From positions 62,001-126,000 of the forward strand of contig NZ_JAUXXZ010000081.1 in NCBI RefSeq assembly GCF_030684675.1: DNA of 64,000 nucleotides, in the 5' to 3' direction. Positions 976-29,969 of the stretch are shown in pieces. The translations under genes and the position numbers were made by a program. The notes below the pieces were generated by a model. The model ran no database searches. It was not told the DNA's origin and was given only the letters and a program-made list of their open reading frames with translations. The first letter of the stretch is position 1. Each line of letters begins with the position of its first letter. This DNA is from Daejeonella sp. Its GTDB lineage: Bacteria; Bacteroidota; Bacteroidia; Sphingobacteriales; Sphingobacteriaceae.

Positions 976-3900
976 ATGAAAAATACACTGGTTCTCCTTC
1001 TTATTTTTTATTGCCATATCGGCTTTTGTCAGATAGTTGACGATTTCTCGGACGGCAATTTTAATGCAAACCCCGAATGGAATGGCAGCAATTCGGGTGG
1101 AGATTTCAAAATCATAAACAATCTTCTGAGGTCTGAATCAAATAAAGCATCCGGAAATTTCCACCTGAGCACAGCAAATTCACTTGCATTAAACTGCTAT
1201 TGGGAGTTCTGGATCAACTTGCAGTTCAGTACTTCGAGCTTAAACTATGCCGATATATATCTGATCTCCGATAAAGCTGATCTTCAGAGTGCGGTAATCA
1301 ATGGTTATTTCATAAGAATAGGTAATACTGAAGATGAAATCAGTTTATACAAAAGGTCAGGCTCTACGGGCAGCAGTATCCGTATTATTGATGGTATCAA
1401 TGGCTCGGTTGGCTCAAGCAACAATACAGTCAAAATTCGTGTCAGCCGGAACCATCTCGGTCTTTTTACTCTGGATAGGGAAGTAATTGGTACTAATTCA
1501 ATTATCGTCAATGAAGGTTCATTTGTTGACAACACCCATATTAACACCTCATCTTTTGGGATTTTTATACAGCAATCAACTGCCTCGTTTTTTCAGAAAC
1601 ATTTCTTTGATGATTTCAAGATTGGAATACTGAATACAGATAGCATAGCTCCGATACTAAATATGGTCACTGTTCTTGACTCAAGCACTTTGGAGGTCAG
1701 GTTCAGTGAAGCCATGGACAGCCTGAGTGTCAAAGACAAAACAAATTACAATATCAATAATTTTCCAGGCCATATAGTGCAAATAAATACAGAAGCCGAT
1801 CCACAGAAATATAGAATTCGGCTTTCAGAACCCTTGAATACGGAAAATTTTCTATTGACTGTACTGAACGTAAGTGATAGAAATGGGAATAGGATAAAAT
1901 CAGGCAACTCCTATTCATTTAACTACATAAAACCATATTATGGCAGTTTCCGGGATATTATAATTAATGAAATATTTCCCGATCCTTCACCACAAATCGA
2001 CCTTCCCTCAGTTGAATATGTAGAATTAATTAATTCAGGCGATAAAACAATCTCTTTAAACAACTGGAAATTTCTAGACCCTTCAAGTACAGCAATATTG
2101 GGGAATATCAGCATCGCACCCGGCTCCATTTTAATACTATGCGCAAAATCAGATACCTCTGAGTTTCAAAAATTCGGCAATGTTCTTGGAATTTCACCCT
2201 GGCCAGGTTTAAATAATAGCAATGATGTACTTAAACTGAAAAATGCGCAAAACACCTTAATCGATTCTCTGAGCTACTCTGATCTATGGTACCGCAGCTC
2301 CGTAAAAAAGCAGGGAGGATGGAGTCTGGAACGTATCGATCCCAAATCGCTTTGTCAGGGTCAGTTTAACTGGGCCGCTTCGGTAGATTCTGCCGGAGGA
2401 ACACCAGGGAAAAAGAATTCTGTTTATGTAATGAATTCCGACCTTATATCTCCAAAAGTAGATAGCATAAACAGATTGTCAGACACCACAATCACTGTCT
2501 ATTTCAACCGGCATCTTGATAAATCTACAGTCCTTAAGGAAAACTTTACTATGCTTCCAAATGCAGGCAGCATCAGGAATATTATTCCGGACACAGACTA
2601 TAAACAACTCAGGATTACTTTTTCTGAGAAATTTTCAGCGGGGAAAAACTATGTATTGAGCATATCCGGATTAAAGGACTGCAGTGGAAATTCGATTCAG
2701 AGTACCCCATCCCAATTGAGTTTTAGTTTGCCGCTAATAGCTCCGCCGCCACCAGAAAAACCTGATACAGCAGTAATTTTTATCACCGAGATCTTTGCTG
2801 ATCCCTCTCCGGAGGTCGGATTACCCTTGGTAGAATTCGTTGAGATTCACAACCCGGGTAAGGATACCCTTATTCTTGAAGGGTGGAGTCTGAATGACAC
2901 TCAAACCAAAGGCAGCATAAAGAAGAGTCTGCTAGCACCGGGTGAATTCCTGATTCTTTGTCCTGCCGCAGATACAAGCCAATACAAAGCTTACGGTAAA
3001 ACTGCGGGAATATCCCCCTGGCCTTCGCTGGGGAATAGTTCCGATCGTCTGGTTCTGAAGAGTTTCAAAAACCGAGCTGTTGATTCCATTTCCTATTCAG
3101 ACACCTGGTATGATGATACAAAAAAGAAGCAAGGAGGCTGGAGCCTGGAGCGAACTGATGTTTTTTCGAAGTGCCCGGGTATTTTAAACTGGAGCGCGTC
3201 AATTGATACTTTGGGTGGAACACCAGGGAAGCAAAACTCGGTCAATATCCGGAATTATGACTCGATACCCTTTAAATCGGATAGTATGATCGTTAAAACT
3301 GACACCACTTTATTACTTTATTTGAATAAATCCAGCAATATCAGTTCTATACGAATTGAGAATTTTACTCTGATACCTGCATCTGGTCTAATCAAAAATA
3401 TTACTGAAGATTCAAAGATCCGGCAGCTAAAAATCACATTCAGTGAAAAATTTCTTGCGGGAAAAACATATGAGCTGGCCATATCCGGAGTAAAAGACTG
3501 CAGTGGGAATTCAATTCAAAGTACACCCTCTCCATTGAGTTTTTCTTTGCCGGCAGCAGCACCTCCACCTGCAGAAAAACCTGATTCTGCATTAATTTAT
3601 ATCACTGAAATCTTCGCTGATCCATCACCTGAGGTCGGGCTACCGCTTGTTGAATTTGTTGAAATTCTTAATCCCGGCAAGGATAGCATTAATCTTGAAG
3701 GATGGAGTTTAAATGACACCCAAACCAAAGGCAGCATAAAAAAAATTCTGATTGCACCGGGAGAATTCCTGATTCTTTGCCCGGCTGCAGATACCACTCA
3801 GTACAAAGTTTTCGGTAAAACTGCAGGAATATCAGTATGGCCATTATTGGGAAACAGTTCTGACCGTGTGGTTCTGAAAAGTTTCAAAAACCGAACTGTT

Positions 3901-6852
3901 GATTCCATTGCCTATTCAGACACCTGGTATGATGATGCAAAAAAGAAGCAGGGAGGCTGGAGCATGGAGCGAATTGATGTTTTTTCGAAGTGTTCGGGTA
4001 TTCTAAACTGGACGGCATCAACAGATACTTTGGGTGGAACACCAGGGAAGCAAAACTCGGTAAATATTCGGAATTATGACTCGATACCATTTAAAGCAGA
4101 TAGTTTGACCGTAAAATCTGATACTACCTTATCACTATTTTTTAATAAATCTGCTAACATAACTTCAATTCGGCTTGAGAATTTCGTGCTATCACCGTCA
4201 GCTGGCCAGATCAAAAATATCACTAAAGATTCAAAGAGCCGGCAACTAAAAATTACCTTTAATGAGAAATTTCTCGCAGGAAAAACCTATAATCTGAGTA
4301 TTTCAGGAATAAAGGACTGCAGTGAAAATTCTATTCAAAGTACATCCTCTCACTTGAGTTTTACTTTGCCGGCAGCAGCACCTCCACCTGTAGAAAAACC
4401 TGACACAGCATTAATTCATATTACCGAAATCTTCGCTGACCCTTCTCCAGAGATTAGATTACCCCTGGTAGAGTTTGTTGAAATTTATAATCCCGGCAAG
4501 GATACCCTTAATCTTGAAGGATGGAGTCTGAATGATACTCAAACCAAAGGAAGCCTAAAAAGAAGCCAGCTATCACCGGGAGAATTCCTGATTCTTTGCC
4601 CGGCTGCAGATACCATTCAGTACAAAGTGTATGGTAAAACTGCAGGAATATCACCCTGGCCTTCGCTGGGAAATAGTTCCGACCATCTGGTTTTGAAAAG
4701 TCATAAAAACCGAGTTGTTGATTCGGTTTCCTACTCAGATAAATGGTATAAAGATGCTCTAAAAAAATCTGGCGGATGGTCGCTGGAAAAAATTGATCTG
4801 AATCCAATCTCATGTCCCAATTTTTACAACTGGGCAGCATCAACAGACCATTCCGGTGGTACACCCGGCAGAAAAAACAGCCAGGGAGACACATTAAGCA
4901 GAGATGTAGAGTTAAAAATCGAGTCTGTCAACATCCTTGCAGATAGCACGCTTAGTATTCTATTTAACCAGATTCCTGATACAAGTTTTTTAAAAGCCAA
5001 CAATTTTAATATCCCTAAGGAAATTGGAAGATCAAAAAATTTAGCTATCCTACCCGATTACACTGGAGTAAGACTGAACTTCAGTAAAAAATTCAATGAA
5101 GGAATAGAATACACACTTTTCGCTGATTCACTCTATTCTTGTTCCGGGAAATTAAGTTCAGTAATGCAAAGTCAAATTTCTTTCAGTATCCCATCTATAC
5201 CCGAAATTGATTATCCCTTGATAATAAATGAAATTCTTGCCGACCCAAGCCCCAGCCGGGGTTTACCAGAAGCAGAATTTGTGGAACTTTTTAATCCAAC
5301 ATCAAGCTCTGTAAATATCACTGGTTTAAACTTTGGTGACCAAGGCAGAAATTACTCCTTTACCAAAGGTGAAATTGCAGCACAATCCTACCTCATATTA
5401 TGTGCTGAAAAGGACACCTCACTTTTCCTCTCTTATGGAAAAGTTATTGGTCTACCGGTGTGGCCCGACCTGAATAATGAAACAGATATTTTAATTCTAA
5501 AAAATAACAAGGGCAAAGAAATACATAAGCTTAGGTATGACTCCAATTGGTACCGGGATTCTGAGAAAAGAAAAGGCGGATATACCCTTGAGCTTATTGA
5601 TCCTGAATCAATCTGCCTTAGTTTTCAGAACTGGACAGCCAGCAGGGACAGCTCCGGAGGAACTCCCGGAAAGAAAAATTCAGTGTATCAGTCTGATTAC
5701 AAGCCTGAACCTGTGAAGTTGAAATTGGTAGAAATTTTAGACAGTATGAGAATTGTCCTAACCTTTAACAAAGCAGCAGACAGTGTTAAAGCGAGCATAA
5801 ACAGTAATTATTTTCTGAATAATGGAGCAGGAAACCCTATCCATTCCCAAATAAGCGGACCGGATTTTAACCCGGTTATATTAACTTTCAGTGAGCCACT
5901 GAGTAAAGGATACACCTATCGAATAACAGTAAGCAATGTCAGTGATTGCAAGAACACAATAATTCCGGCAGAATTCAATTCTCTGGAATTTACCATTAGC
6001 AGAAATATTGGCAAGAATGATATTCTGATTACCGAAATACTTTTTAATCCAAGAGTGGGGGGATCAGATTTTGTAGAAATCTTAAACAACAGTGATTATC
6101 CACTTGATTTGAAAGATCTTTCAATAGCCAGAATGATCAAAGACAGCATAAATTCAATTCAGCAACTGAGCAAAAAGCAAGTATTCATTGAACCAGGAAA
6201 CTATATCGCACTTACACCAGATCCCGGCAATATTAAAAAGGAATATTTCTTAAAAGATACTGCGTCCATAATTAAAATCGATCCCTTCCCGATATTTAAT
6301 GATGATGCCGGCACTGCTATTCTGATCAGTAAAGGACAAAAAATAGATCAACTGAGCTATTCTGAAAAAATGCATTTTCAACTTCTTAAGACTAAAGAAG
6401 GTGTAAGTTTGGAACGCAGTAAACTGAACAGACCTAATACTGATCCCGGGAATCTAAGATCGGCAACTTCAGCGTCTGGCTTTGCCACTCCGGGCTACAA
6501 GAATTCCCAGCATTCAGATGATCCTGTATTTCAGGAAAATTTCAAACTTGCTTCAAAAACATTTTCTCCAGATAATGATGGCTATGAAGATCTTCTGGAA
6601 ATGAATTATAAATTTCCTGGCCCCGGAAAGATTGCAAATGTATCTATATTTAATGTCCATGGAGTTTTAATAAAGAAACTTCTTAAGAACTTCATATTAA
6701 ACAATGAAGGTTCATTTATTTGGGATGGATATAACGAACATGGCCAACCCGCTCCGGGTGGCATTTACCTTTTGAAGGCAGAATTCTTTGATACTGATGG
6801 GCATATCAGAAAATTTAGTAAGCCCTTTGTGCTGGCTGTTAAATTTAAATAA
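976..6852 (+). CDS. Giant secreted lamin-tail domain repeat protein with FlgD-like C-terminus
   Basis: A 1958-residue exported protein of unknown specific role, probably at the cell surface. Residues 1-19 form a signal peptide ending FCQ. Residues 20-225 resemble a lectin/LamG-like sandwich. An SbsA-type Ig-like segment (APILNMVTVLDSSTLEVRF) follows. Six lamin-tail-like domains then begin near residues 328, 603, 876, 1149, 1417 and 1683, each opening with an ITEIFADPSP-like strand and VEFVEI. The first five carry GGTPGKKNS-like ends and alternate with Ig-like segments containing ISGLKDCSGN. The last 90 residues (FSPDNDG, WDGYNEHG, GGIYLLKAEFF) look like a FlgD-type Ig or gliding/type-9-secretion tail. 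The domain calls are from motif recognition. The partner or ligand is unknown; a structural adhesin or envelope protein is an inference. Confidence 0.8.
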   Translation: MKNTLVLLLIFYCHIGFCQIVDDFSDGNFNANPEWNGSNSGGDFKIINNLLRSESNKASGNFHLSTANSLALNCYWEFWINLQFSTSSLNYADIYLISDKADLQSAVINGYFIRIGNTEDEISLYKRSGSTGSSIRIIDGINGSVGSSNNTVKIRVSRNHLGLFTLDREVIGTNSIIVNEGSFVDNTHINTSSFGIFIQQSTASFFQKHFFDDFKIGILNTDSIAPILNMVTVLDSSTLEVRFSEAMDSLSVKDKTNYNINNFPGHIVQINTEADPQKYRIRLSEPLNTENFLLTVLNVSDRNGNRIKSGNSYSFNYIKPYYGSFRDIIINEIFPDPSPQIDLPSVEYVELINSGDKTISLNNWKFLDPSSTAILGNISIAPGSILILCAKSDTSEFQKFGNVLGISPWPGLNNSNDVLKLKNAQNTLIDSLSYSDLWYRSSVKKQGGWSLERIDPKSLCQGQFNWAASVDSAGGTPGKKNSVYVMNSDLISPKVDSINRLSDTTITVYFNRHLDKSTVLKENFTMLPNAGSIRNIIPDTDYKQLRITFSEKFSAGKNYVLSISGLKDCSGNSIQSTPSQLSFSLPLIAPPPPEKPDTAVIFITEIFADPSPEVGLPLVEFVEIHNPGKDTLILEGWSLNDTQTKGSIKKSLLAPGEFLILCPAADTSQYKAYGKTAGISPWPSLGNSSDRLVLKSFKNRAVDSISYSDTWYDDTKKKQGGWSLERTDVFSKCPGILNWSASIDTLGGTPGKQNSVNIRNYDSIPFKSDSMIVKTDTTLLLYLNKSSNISSIRIENFTLIPASGLIKNITEDSKIRQLKITFSEKFLAGKTYELAISGVKDCSGNSIQSTPSPLSFSLPAAAPPPAEKPDSALIYITEIFADPSPEVGLPLVEFVEILNPGKDSINLEGWSLNDTQTKGSIKKILIAPGEFLILCPAADTTQYKVFGKTAGISVWPLLGNSSDRVVLKSFKNRTVDSIAYSDTWYDDAKKKQGGWSMERIDVFSKCSGILNWTASTDTLGGTPGKQNSVNIRNYDSIPFKADSLTVKSDTTLSLFFNKSANITSIRLENFVLSPSAGQIKNITKDSKSRQLKITFNEKFLAGKTYNLSISGIKDCSENSIQSTSSHLSFTLPAAAPPPVEKPDTALIHITEIFADPSPEIRLPLVEFVEIYNPGKDTLNLEGWSLNDTQTKGSLKRSQLSPGEFLILCPAADTIQYKVYGKTAGISPWPSLGNSSDHLVLKSHKNRVVDSVSYSDKWYKDALKKSGGWSLEKIDLNPISCPNFYNWAASTDHSGGTPGRKNSQGDTLSRDVELKIESVNILADSTLSILFNQIPDTSFLKANNFNIPKEIGRSKNLAILPDYTGVRLNFSKKFNEGIEYTLFADSLYSCSGKLSSVMQSQISFSIPSIPEIDYPLIINEILADPSPSRGLPEAEFVELFNPTSSSVNITGLNFGDQGRNYSFTKGEIAAQSYLILCAEKDTSLFLSYGKVIGLPVWPDLNNETDILILKNNKGKEIHKLRYDSNWYRDSEKRKGGYTLELIDPESICLSFQNWTASRDSSGGTPGKKNSVYQSDYKPEPVKLKLVEILDSMRIVLTFNKAADSVKASINSNYFLNNGAGNPIHSQISGPDFNPVILTFSEPLSKGYTYRITVSNVSDCKNTIIPAEFNSLEFTISRNIGKNDILITEILFNPRVGGSDFVEILNNSDYPLDLKDLSIARMIKDSINSIQQLSKKQVFIEPGNYIALTPDPGNIKKEYFLKDTASIIKIDPFPIFNDDAGTAILISKGQKIDQLSYSEKMHFQLLKTKEGVSLERSKLNRPNTDPGNLRSATSASGFATPGYKNSQHSDDPVFQENFKLASKTFSPDNDGYEDLLEMNYKFPGPGKIANVSIFNVHGVLIKKLLKNFILNNEGSFIWDGYNEHGQPAPGGIYLLKAEFFDTDGHIRKFSKPFVLAVKFK
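1972..5232 (+). repeat. Four tandem lamin-tail plus Ig coding units, 819-bp period
   Basis: The equivalent codons of successive units start at 1972, 2791, 3610 and 4429, exactly 819 bp (273 codons) apart. The next unit starts at 5233 after 804 bp. The units starting at 2791, 3610 and 4429 are the most alike and keep long near-identical stretches at DNA level, for example the block encoding SLNDTQTKGS. The 1972 and 5233 units are much more diverged. Confidence 0.9.
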
Positions 6853-14997: not shown

Positions 14998-15013
14998 CAC
15001 GTATATTTTTTTG

Positions 15014-15021
15014 TATATTTG
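15014..15021 (+). promoter_or_regulatory. -7 element of the DUF6364/PIN toxin-antitoxin operon
   Basis: TATATTTG fits TAnnTTTG exactly. It lies inside the longer open frame that begins at 15011, so the antitoxin should start at the ATG at 15041. Confidence 0.55.
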
Positions 15022-15040
15022 TACGTACAAAGAAAAGGAT

Positions 15041-15310
15041 ATGGCTAATACAAAATTAACGCTCAGCATGGAACCTGAAGTTGTGTATCGTGCTAAACAA
15101 TACGCAAAAAAGAGGCATATAAGCTTATCCAAATTGATTCAGGATTTTTTAGAAAATTCAATTGAGAGTGATAATTTAAAGGATGATCCGGATCTTAATA
15201 TACCTGAGGAAATAGAAAAGTTAAGAGGAATATTGAAAGGATCTGATCTCTCAAAAAAACAGTTAAAGCAAATAAAGCTTGAGTATCTAAAAGAGAAACA
15301 TGGCCTCTGA
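15041..15310 (+). CDS. DUF6364-like antitoxin, ribbon-helix-helix type
   Basis: An 89-residue protein upstream of a PIN-domain toxin. It begins MANTKLTLSMEPEVVYRAKQ, a short strand followed by helices as in ribbon-helix-helix antitoxins, and continues with RHISLSKLIQDFLE. The C-terminal half is charged and probably binds and blocks the toxin. A promoter element at 15014-15021 rules out the upstream start at 15011. Its end overlaps the toxin start by 11 bases, a typical coupled antitoxin-toxin arrangement. Autoregulation by DNA binding is expected from the family but no operator is proven here. Confidence 0.78.
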   Translation: MANTKLTLSMEPEVVYRAKQYAKKRHISLSKLIQDFLENSIESDNLKDDPDLNIPEEIEKLRGILKGSDLSKKQLKQIKLEYLKEKHGL

Positions 15311-15713
15311 GAAAATTTTTATTGATTCAGATATTTTATTGGATTTGTTTTTTGACCGGAAGCCCTACTCAATATTTGCTACAAAGTTATTTGATATTGG
15401 CTTAAGAGAAAATTTTAGTTTATATACCTCTGCATTAGTCACAGCGAACTTATACTATATAATATCAAAGCAGCAGGACAAGAATTCAGCAAATGAATGT
15501 TTATCGATACTCTTAAAATATATTCATGTGCTACCAATGGAACTGGATGATGTTGAATATGGTTTAACAAATGTATTTGATGATTTTGAGGATGCAATTC
15601 AATACCATATTGCCGAAAAAAATCATTGTACAATAATCTTAACCCGTAATCTAAAGGATTATAAACATGCTAAAATACCTGTTTTAACAGCACAACATTT
15701 TTTTAAACAGTAA
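15300..15713 (+). CDS. PIN-domain toxin, VapC-like
   Basis: A 137-residue PIN-domain protein, by family a magnesium-dependent ribonuclease. Acidic residues sit at the expected places: FIDSDILLDLF near the N-terminus, DDFEDAIQYHIA in the middle and TRNLKDY near the end. The order after its antitoxin and the 11-base overlap support a toxin-antitoxin module. The stop is only 6 bases before the pheS start, so the module may share a transcript with an essential gene. RNA target unknown. Confidence 0.83.
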   Translation: MASEKIFIDSDILLDLFFDRKPYSIFATKLFDIGLRENFSLYTSALVTANLYYIISKQQDKNSANECLSILLKYIHVLPMELDDVEYGLTNVFDDFEDAIQYHIAEKNHCTIILTRNLKDYKHAKIPVLTAQHFFKQ

Positions 15714-15719
15714 ATTACA

Positions 15720-16790
15720 ATGCAAGAAAAAATATCCCAATACACATCAGAAATAAATTCATTTCAACCAAAAAACAATGATGAACTCGAAGCATTCAGA
15801 ATTCGCTTTCTGGGTACAAAAGGCATTATAAAGGATCTTTTCGAAGCCTTCAAAACTGTTTCTGCAGAAGAAAAACGGATTCTGGGCAAGGTTCTGAATG
15901 AGTTCAAGCAAATGGCTGAAGCCAAATATCAGATACTTAAAGAAAGTTTAGAGACTGTTGAGAAAAGTGCTGATTCTGAGCTTGACCTTACTCTTCCGGG
16001 AGAAGGATTCGAACTTGGTGCGCGCCATCCCCTATCTCTGGTTAGAAAAGAAATTATTGAGATTTTCAAAAAACTGGGATTCAATGTAGCCGAAGGTCCG
16101 GAGATTGAAGACGACTGGCATAATTTCTCGGCACTTAATTTCCCCGAAGAACACCCGGCCAGGGATATGCAGGATACCTTTTTCATACGCCTCAGCCCCG
16201 ACCCCTCTCCGGGAGGAGAGGGGAGTACAAACGGCAAGGGTGAAGCAATTGCGCTTCGTACCCATACTTCATCTGTTCAGGTAAGAATGATGGAAGCAGG
16301 TAAACCGCCATTCCGCGCTATTATGCCTGGCAGAGTTTATCGAAATGAGGCCATTTCAGCAAGGGCACATTGCTTTTTTCATCAGGTTGAAGGACTGTAT
16401 ATTGATGAGAATGTTTCTTTTGCCGACCTGAAACAAACCTTATTTCATTTTGTTCAGGAGTTGTTTGGAGCAGGCACAAAAGTGCGGTTCAGACCAAGTT
16501 ATTTCCCTTTTACAGAACCATCGGCTGAAATGGACATTTCCTGTTCCATTTGTAAAGGCGATGGCTGCCAGTTCTGTAAATACAGTGGCTGGGTTGAAAT
16601 TCTGGGCTGCGGCATGGTCGACCCGAATGTTCTGGAAAATTGCAATATCGATAGCAAGAAATTTACAGGTTATGCCTTTGGTATGGGGATTGAAAGGATC
16701 ACCAATTTGAAGTATCAGATCAAAGATCTCAGGTTATTTTCAGAAAATGATATCCGCTTTTTAAAGCAATTCCAATCAGAAATGATTTGA
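15720..16790 (+). CDS. pheS: Phenylalanyl-tRNA synthetase alpha subunit, with in-frame insertion
   Basis: Charges tRNA-Phe as an alpha2-beta2 enzyme with PheT. The 356 residues contain an N-terminal coiled-coil arm, the class II motif 2 region GRVYRNEAISARAHCFFHQ, a zinc-knuckle-like segment CSICKGDGCQFC and motif 3 GYAFGMGIERI. Between MQDTFFI and ALRTHTSS, normally a short link, there is an additional stretch of about 20 residues (near 157-178) containing SPDPSPGGEGS. It is encoded by a GC-rich palindrome at 16202-16223. The reading frame is kept. The gene overlaps the next start by one base (TGATG). Confidence 0.95.
   Translation: MQEKISQYTSEINSFQPKNNDELEAFRIRFLGTKGIIKDLFEAFKTVSAEEKRILGKVLNEFKQMAEAKYQILKESLETVEKSADSELDLTLPGEGFELGARHPLSLVRKEIIEIFKKLGFNVAEGPEIEDDWHNFSALNFPEEHPARDMQDTFFIRLSPDPSPGGEGSTNGKGEAIALRTHTSSVQVRMMEAGKPPFRAIMPGRVYRNEAISARAHCFFHQVEGLYIDENVSFADLKQTLFHFVQELFGAGTKVRFRPSYFPFTEPSAEMDISCSICKGDGCQFCKYSGWVEILGCGMVDPNVLENCNIDSKKFTGYAFGMGIERITNLKYQIKDLRLFSENDIRFLKQFQSEMI
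16202..16223 (+). repeat. Palindromic repeat inserted in frame in pheS
   Basis: CCCCTCTCC and GGAGAGGGG form a perfect 9-bp inverted repeat around a GGGA loop. It is unlike the flanking coding sequence and encodes the extra SPDPSPGGEGS peptide of PheS. It resembles the short GC-rich palindromes scattered through Bacteroidota intergenic DNA, which is recollection, not a search result. Confidence 0.75.
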
Positions 16791-29110: not shown

Positions 29111-29132
29111 TCTAATTTAACAACAGCTTTAC

Positions 29133-29230
29133 TCAGACTTCAGACCTCAGACCTCAGACCTCAGACCTCAGACTTCAGACATCAGACTTCAGACTTCAGA
29201 CCTCAGACTTCAGACTTCAGACATCAGACC
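29133..29230 (+). repeat. Heptanucleotide array, 14 copies of TCAGACN
   Basis: Fourteen consecutive 7-bp units occupy 98 bases without a break. All begin TCAGAC; the seventh base is C, T or A. The array ends 16 bases before the pdxJ start. Confidence 0.95.
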
Positions 29231-29246
29231 TCCTACCTCCTTTACC

Positions 29247-29969
29247 ATGACAAACCTATCTGTAAACATCAATAAAATAGCTACACTTCGTAATTCAAGA
29301 GGTGGCAATAACCCTGACCTGATTAAAGTTGCCCTGGATGCCGAACGATTCGGAGCAGAGGGAATAACCGTTCATCCACGTCCGGATGAGAGGCATATCC
29401 GCTATCAGGATGTATTCGACCTGAAAAAGGTGATTCAAACGGAGTTTAATATTGAGGGTAATCCCAAAGAACAAAAATTCGTTGAGTTGGTTTTAGCCAA
29501 TAAGCCAGCACAGGTTACATTGGTGCCTGATGCTGAGGGTCAGTTAACATCCAATCATGGCTGGGATACAATCAAACATCAAAGCTATCTTAAAGATATT
29601 ATTGCTGAGTTTAAATCTGAAGGCATTCGGGTGTCCATTTTTGTTGATCCTGCAAAAGAAATGATTGAAGCTGCGGAGCGTACAGGAACAGACCGCATTG
29701 AACTTTATACCGAATCATATGCCAGCAATTATCATGCTGACAAGGAATTTGCGATTAAACCCTATATCGCAGCTGCCCAGCTTGCCAACAAATTAGGTTT
29801 GGGTATAAATGCAGGCCATGATCTTGATTTGCATAATTTAAATTACTTTTCAAAAAACATTCCCGGATTACTCGAAGTAAGTATCGGGCATGCACTTATT
29901 TGCGACTCTCTGTATTTAGGTTTGGAAAATACAATCCAAATGTACCTGAGGGCACTAAAGAATAATTAA
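29247..29969 (+). CDS. pdxJ: Pyridoxine 5'-phosphate synthase
   Basis: Condenses 1-deoxyxylulose 5-phosphate with 3-amino-2-oxopropyl phosphate in vitamin B6 synthesis. The 240-residue TIM barrel shows [53 protein letters not shown] and INAGHDL, all in family order. The gene starts 16 bases after the heptad array, leaving little room for a conventional promoter, so it may depend on the array or on upstream transcription. PLP made here is needed by Kbl and GcvP in this window. Confidence 0.96.

Follow-up and report, generated by a model that had tools for sequence, protein, structure and literature searches.

The window analysed here, a 64-kb stretch (64,000 nucleotides) of a Daejeonella sp. 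genome, carries pheS (Table 1), whose product matches 25 distinct PDB sequences at E <= 0.001 and which carries an in-frame palindromic insert. Just upstream lie two small overlapping ORFs (15011-15310 and 15300-15713) that look by eye like an antitoxin/PIN-type toxin pair. Elsewhere, the window holds an array of the 7-bp repeats TCAGACC/TCAGACT (29119-29258) and three 300-nt direct repeats (2605-4542), spaced at exactly 819 bp and 76-79% alike to the reference copy.

Table 1. Positions of pheS and of the parts of its insert in the 64-kb window.
Feature	Position	Strand	Basis or remark
pheS, phenylalanine--tRNA ligase alpha subunit, 356 aa, insert host	15720..16790	+	ORF; Pfam PF01409 and PF02912
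Palindromic PIT/TM-type element including outer tags	16189..16246	.	alignment with 109 PheS loci, sister-loop DNA, tag coordinates
Outer tag GCCTCAGCCCC	16189..16199	-	minus-strand reading GGGGCTGAGGC, probable triplex third-strand tail, by-eye comparison with E. coli TM (PMC4666352)
Pyrimidine arm CCCCTCTCC of perfect palindrome	16202..16210	+	
Purine arm GGAGAGGGG of perfect palindrome	16215..16223	+	loop GGGA 16211-16214
Second outer tag GGGTGAAGC, imperfect, 14 bases off hairpin	16238..16246	+	pairs with first tag in predicted fold

An in-frame palindromic insert in PheS

The perfect 9-bp inverted repeat reported in the first-pass annotation was confirmed: CCCCTCTCC-GGGA-GGAGAGGGG (16202-16223) lies in frame in the pheS ORF and is the sole such match in the window, where 0.00 are expected from 100 dinucleotide shuffles. 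The claim that this palindrome encodes an added peptide stood as far as the loop is longer than in sister genomes, but the feature exceeds the 22-bp palindrome on account of its outer tags, and host DNA seems to have been replaced. Including the tags, the element encodes residues about 157-176, RLSPDPSPGGEGSTNGKGEA. After MQDTFFI, the window PheS reads FFI-RLSPDPSPGGEGSTNGKGEA-IALRT, whereas 12 of the 17 genus sisters with a match read FFI-KKGGEKGD-IALRT, which amounts to 20 loop residues instead of 8 and a net gain of 36 bp. Palindrome-free relatives do not share the same loop, then, as the annotation had conceded they might; theirs is shorter and different. In the alignment, the solved PheS structures 4p71 and 2rhq miss 17 residues at the insert place. 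Judged from the loop alignments, the PheS insertion appears to have replaced host DNA rather than merely added to it.

The comparison covered 109 PheS loci from other genomes (29 plus the best 80 of 598, with possible double entries of some genomes). Only one of them, from the congeneric genome G006, has a palindromic insert, VSLNPTLSKGEGEEA, at the same place. Its palindrome differs from that of the window, and sisters nearer in PheS (G007, G010 and G018) have, unlike G006, no insert. This could reflect two separate insertion events, horizontal transfer, or an ancient insert that has been lost repeatedly. The altered loop of G005 (L031) may be a remnant of an insert, and another long loop (L074) is unrelated to the palindromic one. 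AlphaFold2 modelled the window PheS with a mean pLDDT of 72.0 and placed the insert (residues about 158-175) between strands 153-157 and 176-180; its pLDDT is below 50, so the model says no more of it than 'loop'. The predicted DNA fold of the segment is only modestly stable (z -1.80; 13 of 200 shuffles equally good), a point against the reading favoured below. BLAST with the 63-base PheS element returned itself and three chance-level matches, and the single Rfam match fell short of the threshold (19.5 bits where the gathering score is 71; E 0.46).

Recurrence and inheritance of the palindrome family

The palindrome is not unique in its genome (G000; 4.25 Mb, 84 contigs), so the refutation that the annotation had allowed for did not materialize. 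The exact 9-bp arms occur twice and the core with 7-bp arms, CCTCTCC-n-GGAGAGG, 12 times, compared with 0 for the reversed control. Copies lie between genes as well as within them: eight of the 12 cores are in frame in long ORFs, namely PheS, MiaB, a multicopper oxidase, ArgB, AspS, an IcmF-like mutase, a heavy-metal ATPase and an N6-methylase (names other than PheS being readings of the sequence, not Pfam assignments), and the remaining ones comprise three longer intergenic forms and one terminator-like core. The terminator-like core, at C7:88534 (L004), was rejected as a family member; it has no tails and resembles an ordinary terminator hairpin. In proteins, the core is read in all three frames, as PSP..GEG, LS.GEG and PLLWRG. 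The outer tag GCCTCACCC occurs 26 times in comparison with 10 for its reversed control, and the full-element pattern GCCTCACC-N8-38-GGTGAGGC has 0 matches in G000 because the tags are degenerate, one-sided or farther apart. Across the genus, 19 of 20 genomes contain 1 to 21 looser cores each (reversed controls 0-2 per genome). More widely, 63 of 295 Bacteroidia genomes, belonging to 34 of 155 genera, had the core together with the triplex tail (GGTGAG; no reversed-control match in the rows as read), and the core alone turned up in 73 of 149 genomes (reversed control 0-2 per genome).

A longer intergenic form, approximately GCCTCACCCTGTGTACGGAACTACTGG...CCCTCTCCnnnGGAGAGGGTTTAAA, was seen in G000 on contigs C21, C28, C42 and C59 (L264-L267) and in G010 on C19 (L276), with tag and core common to several copies; ORFs starting with MKNNRRDF lie near it in C28, C21 and G010 C19. 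At G010:C1:578749-579164 (L271), four tandem palindrome units are spaced by about 133 bp where no ORF reaches 150 aa.

At each of the eight in-frame sites, comparison with sister species, which provide inserts or empty sites, supports an insertion. The AspS insert is common to G000, G005, G007, G010, G012 and G018 and absent from G003, G006 and G013; the loop of G014 is a different one. In MiaB, the insert is common to G000, G007, G008, G010, G012 and G018, of which G010, G007 and G008 show two palindromes or near-palindromes there, and G005 and G006 have sequence related to it; it is missing from G003, G013 and G014, the first of which has a long unrelated loop. The ArgB insert occurs in four genomes, its palindrome eroded in G018 and G012. 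G000, G007, G008 and G010 retain an intact IcmF core, which shows varying degrees of erosion in others. Confinement of the IcmF insert to a subclade proved too strict a description, since G005, G006 and G013 carry apparent decayed remnants. The ATPase, oxidase and methylase inserts were seen in G000 only, among few homologues compared (seven, five and one, respectively, some of them paralogues). By eye, about 8-24 bp of host DNA seem to have been replaced in PheS, ATPase, oxidase and methylase, in place of a clean addition, and no target-site duplication was noticed by eye; both points count against the reading favoured below. The term 'mobile palindromes' used at first reading is backed by presence and absence among sisters and by the synonymous-site evidence described below, rather than by a move seen to happen.

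By its sequence, the insert family appears to match the PIT/TM intrastrand-triplex repeat, which combines a pyrimidine arm, a purine arm and a third GGGGTGAGG tail. The hairpin CCCTCTCC-n-GGAGAGGG is present in the window palindrome, and the third-strand tail (the mirror of the purine arm, approximately GGGGTGAGG, 2-4 nt from the stem) has a probable counterpart in GGGGCTGAGGC on the minus strand, which stands two bases off the hairpin like the E. coli form TCGGGGTGAGGG and is one base longer. Stem and tail are alike in E. coli CCCTCTCCCTGTGGGAGAGGGCCGGGGTGAGGGC and in MiaB of G010 CTCTCTCCTTTGGAGAGGGCCGGGGTGAGGC, and both linker types, CCG/TCG and TTA, occur in E. coli and here (compared with the motifs given in PMC4666352). 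The PIT repeats go back to Hoyne et al., as cited in PMC4666352, and a palindrome CCCTCTCCC-n-GGGAGAGGG is given with 100 copies for Enterobacter 638 (PMC2869309). In E. coli MG1655, the account of Holder et al. (2015, PMC4666352) gives 23 copies that are always intergenic and have no mobility genes near them, whereas here eight of 12 cores are in frame and the family is tied to the nuclease domain DUF559. We take the in-frame position as a new habit that lies outside the sequence definition of PIT/TM; in-frame copies in essential genes and the DUF559 tie are new relative to PIT/TM as described for E. coli.

The likeness to the Rickettsia palindromic elements drawn in the first-pass annotation holds for the way the inserts work and not for their sequence family, which is that of the PIT/TM triplex repeat. 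The Rickettsia elements are in-frame palindromic inserts in unrelated genes (Ogata et al., 2000, 2002, via PMC10969869 and PMC3733652), and such inserts, absent from relatives, are found here as well. The inserts here are shorter and from another phylum, the likeness being one of habit rather than of compared sequences, and the passages on Rickettsia in those two papers mention no nuclease partner.

DUF559 nuclease domains between palindromes

The PheS insert itself contains no DUF559 domain; a DUF559 domain bordered by inverted palindromes occurs in the LeuS of four sister genomes, a connection that the first-pass annotation did not make. In G010, G004 and G006, whose loci were chosen for their palindromes regardless of DUF559, LeuS is 1092-1142 aa long and has DUF559 between palindromes, all in frame. 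G008 LeuS (1094 aa), found through the DUF559 search, likewise has DUF559 and inverted palindromes in frame. These inserts of about 150 aa consist chiefly of the nuclease domain and the palindromes. At the same site, G005 carries two palindromes and lacks DUF559, and LeuS sites that bear a short insert in one genome can contain DUF559 in another. Genomes of six families (f1, f6, f10, f14, f21 and f58, the last being a stop-codon case) have site 1 occupied, and two LeuS with DUF559 at site 2 have a short site 1. The LeuS of G219 (L390) is no open fusion because of a stop codon in its right palindrome. The IcmF insert of G000 falls in a region that holds DUF559 in G077 (f16), within a stretch that is variable in all. 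As a separate observation, G006 LeuS (L318, L382) has three inserts: site 1 contains DUF559 and palindromes, site 2 an insert of two motifs, and a third insert, NSLSKGESRGET, precedes the KMSKS loop.

A Pfam search of 80 Bacteroidia genomes, hand-chosen as 44 palindrome-bearing and 36 palindrome-free, gave 142 DUF559 matches in 51 genomes, 46 of them in ORFs of at least 350 aa. Forty of these large-ORF loci were read; four others were already in the set, and G227:C33 and G072:C19 were left out. By Pfam, DUF559 lies inside MetH, IleS, LeuS (two sites), Acs, RecJ, RecG, MutS, a UvrD-like helicase and IcmF, and also inside SpoIIE-type phosphatases and restriction enzymes; it stands at the ends of RluA-like, HisF, QueG and GATase_5 (PurL-type) proteins and in a TsaB-like ORF. 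Many, but not all, of the 40 loci are in-frame interruptions; the exceptions include one under the DUF559 cut-off (L423), one partly masked (L393) and L390 with its stop codon. In G176, from another family, an N-formylglutamate amidohydrolase ORF passes through a palindrome into DUF559. Two loci, L415 (G087:C13) and L420 (G045:C17), have DUF559 beside tandem peptide repeats (TTHPQGEVVEN and GFRGVSSHDK) that look like amplified in-frame short repeats.

A pyrimidine/purine hairpin lies within 150 bp of DUF559 in 35 of 36 large-ORF loci (the 40 minus masked L393, L415 near a contig end, and L417 and the sub-threshold L423). Both sides are marked in 26/36 when a hairpin or core 7-mer is counted and in 23/36 for hairpins alone. 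Random placement in the same loci (300 trials) gave means of 5.3 for either side (maximum 12) and 0.64 for both (maximum 3). By the hairpin rule, the left-out loci L417 and L415 are marked on the right side only and L423 not at all. The link is weakened by 20 hand-picked stand-alone DUF559 loci, of which 12 have a hairpin or motif within 150 bp and seven have one on both sides (random means 5.9, maximum 11, and 0.95, maximum 4). DUF559 occurs in 37/44 palindrome-bearing versus 14/36 palindrome-free genomes (Fisher p 5e-5, uncorrected for kinship). Also counting against the link, seven palindrome-bearing genomes lack it, including G007 (10 loose cores) and G014 (11), and some of the 14 palindrome-free genomes with DUF559 carry it in large ORFs.

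The LeuS DUF559 insert has a lower synonymous divergence than its host gene. In the three pairs among G010, G004 and G008, codons outside the palindrome arms were identical in 66/92 for the insert versus 269/546 for the rest of LeuS (0.72 v 0.49, p 7e-5), 63/91 versus 264/544 (0.69 v 0.49, p 3e-4) and 79/96 versus 522/830 (0.82 v 0.63, p 1e-4), with codons treated as independent. The amino acids of the insert are not more conserved than the rest despite the higher codon identity. A younger common origin of the insert, as in horizontal homing, would fit this pattern; a DNA-level constraint could also raise codon identity. Between G010 and G008, identity stays high (0.80) over the 60 LeuS codons that follow the insert, as co-conversion would predict, though local variation would fit as well. 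The dN/dS of the LeuS DUF559 is 0.10-0.13 in three finite pairs, three further pairs being saturated.

The nuclease signature residues D, E and D are present in all 61 aligned DUF559 domains (L423, L393 and L415 omitted). In the DUF559 tree, which rests on few columns and has many open forks, a branch with support 98/97 has on one side 34 in-protein copies without any of the 20 stand-alone genes, and on the other the 20 stand-alone genes and seven in-frame or terminal copies. Neighbouring copies can belong to different hosts and families, as with IleS in f38 and RecG in f16 (99/91) or Acs in f4 and RecJ in f16 (97/84), and the two copies of G206 (PurL-type and UvrD) pair at 86/93. For the nine multi-copy sites, at least 13 site changes are needed, compared with eight if each site were one clade. 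A literature search over titles and abstract openings, with subscription papers mostly outside, found no report that links DUF559 to palindromes or triplex repeats or describes it as inserted in host proteins, although such a report may exist.

Outside Bacteroidota, the DUF559 gene ycjD of E. coli K-12 runs at its 3' end into an imperfect TM-like palindrome, which gives the protein the end RRSPSP and fails the strict hairpin rule. TM number 9 of Holder et al. lies about 155 bp beyond this palindrome, and its hairpin is the sole strict one in the 14-kb ycjD stretch; no TM-like palindrome was found on the other side of the gene. Plasmid DUF559 loci, of which 12 of 39 records were sampled (Azospirillum, Synechocystis, Sphingomonas, Deinococcus x2, Shinella, Pseudanabaena x2, Picosynechococcus, Photobacterium, Methylobacterium and Lelliottia), have a hairpin within 200 bp in 11/12, with 25 hairpins in 4,800 bp of flank versus 12 in 24,000 bp farther off. 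Their hairpin sequences vary by group (CCCTCCCGC, CCCCCC etc.). Pseudanabaena galeata offers another in-frame case, with DUF559 in a protein of the Eco57I/N6-methylase type. YcjD and the Caulobacter VsrA share the Pfam family PF04480 and its conserved PD-(D/E)XK-type residues; VsrA is described as a putative mismatch-repair enzyme, and the in-protein, palindrome-bordered form does not figure in that description (PMC12907096).

Origin of the inserts and their significance

Overall, these observations support the earlier interpretation, and we give a probability of roughly 0.7 to the following reading: the PheS insert is a miniature of PIT/TM palindromes (pyrimidine-arm hairpin plus GGGGTGAGGC tail) that enter reading frames and persist there, lengthening loops of essential enzymes, the DUF559 form being most likely autonomous and homing-like and the short forms either internally deleted derivatives or non-autonomous copies. 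Inverted palindromes and a DUF559 (Vsr/PD-(D/E)XK-type) nuclease would together make up an element that enters conserved genes and is retained only where reading frame and fold survive, and therefore in in-frame loops. The nuclease would cut DNA and thereby mobilize the element: empty alleles would be cut and then repaired from the occupied allele, which would lead to spread. Loss of the nuclease would leave paired or single palindromes, which may in time erode to ordinary peptide, the course seen in ArgB and IcmF. One such miniature would be the insert in PheS, probably derived from a DUF559-type element, its peptide presumably translated and tolerated. The sole DUF559 match of G000 is a stand-alone gene outside the main in-protein clade, so the genome has no obvious autonomous partner and current mobilization would need that protein or one from outside; PheS may also just carry an old copy.

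Homing endonucleases in inteins and introns also sit inside conserved genes and hit the same sites in distant hosts. Homing-like features here are the same LeuS sites across families and the reduced synonymous divergence; the difference is that there is no splicing machinery, and the nuclease stays in the host protein as far as the DNA shows. Removal of the insert from the product, as an intron, an intein or a ribosomal bypass element (byp), is suggested by the likeness to byp elements, which are palindromic inserts in coding genes, and to inteins, which carry homing endonucleases. We consider it very improbable: the inserts in eight G000 genes are open and keep the frame, which would not be expected of skipped sequence, the short inserts are far below intein size, and no splicing domain is among the Pfam matches, the LeuS DUF559 inserts being mostly nuclease and palindromes. 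Even less credence is due to a variable PheS loop lengthened by drift with a coincidental palindrome. Loop length does vary among relatives, but this explanation is already contradicted by the 0.00 palindromes expected, by 11 further core copies and by palindromic inserts in seven other genes.

A more serious, though in our judgement unlikely, alternative is that the palindromes spread alone, by ectopic recombination or template switching at microhomology where forks stall at triplex or hairpin DNA, and that DUF559 is a passenger or beneficiary that lands between them. The inserts replace partly similar host DNA, since a resemblance to the arms is seen both in the empty ATPase site CCCCTTCAAAAAGGG and in the purine-rich loop of PheS; G007 and G014 have palindromes without DUF559; and the surroundings of the E. 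coli TM motifs are reported as unstable by Holder et al., who found no mobility genes (PMC4666352). Self-spreading palindromes agree poorly with hairpins or core motifs on both sides of DUF559 in 26/36 large-ORF loci, with the coincidence of short-insert and DUF559 sites in LeuS (and less clearly in an IcmF region), and with the conserved nuclease residues and low LeuS DUF559 dN/dS. Mobilization as REP elements by a Y1 (RAYT) transposase is another candidate, since palindromes with a conserved foot are typical of REPs and GTAG/CGTC REPs are described as short, single or paired, and sometimes located in ORFs, those for tRNA synthetases among them (Di Nocera et al., 2013, PMC3733652). Y1_Tnp has seven matches in G000 and some in 13/20 genus genomes. 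However, the feet here are GCCTCACC/GGTGAGGC rather than GTAG or CGTC, and no association with the transposase was found: the complete core occurs in 0/21 Y1 entries scanned (some overlapping), with isolated 7- or 8-base motifs in six, and hairpins at Y1 loci have another sequence in 8/11 and are lacking in 3/11. Since G014 has 11 loose cores and no Y1 match as well, we regard this source as scarcely plausible.

Under the favoured reading of a DUF559-driven palindromic element, a wider generalization seems to us an even bet: DUF559 framed by triplex-forming palindromes would be a bacteria-wide selfish class that resides unspliced in the frames of essential enzymes and spreads by homing, and PIT/TM repeats, including those of E. 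coli, would be its ends and relics, supplying protein sequence as they decay. If true, PIT/TM repeats, studied so far as orphan triplex DNA, would gain a candidate enzyme; the making of protein sequence by in-frame palindromes would extend beyond Rickettsia, to aminoacyl-tRNA synthetases and enzymes of DNA repair; and an endonuclease would persist inside essential proteins without intein or intron. How selfish DNA turns into coding sequence, a long-standing question, would then be open to direct tests, both in Bacteroidota that can be cultured and with YcjD of E. coli.
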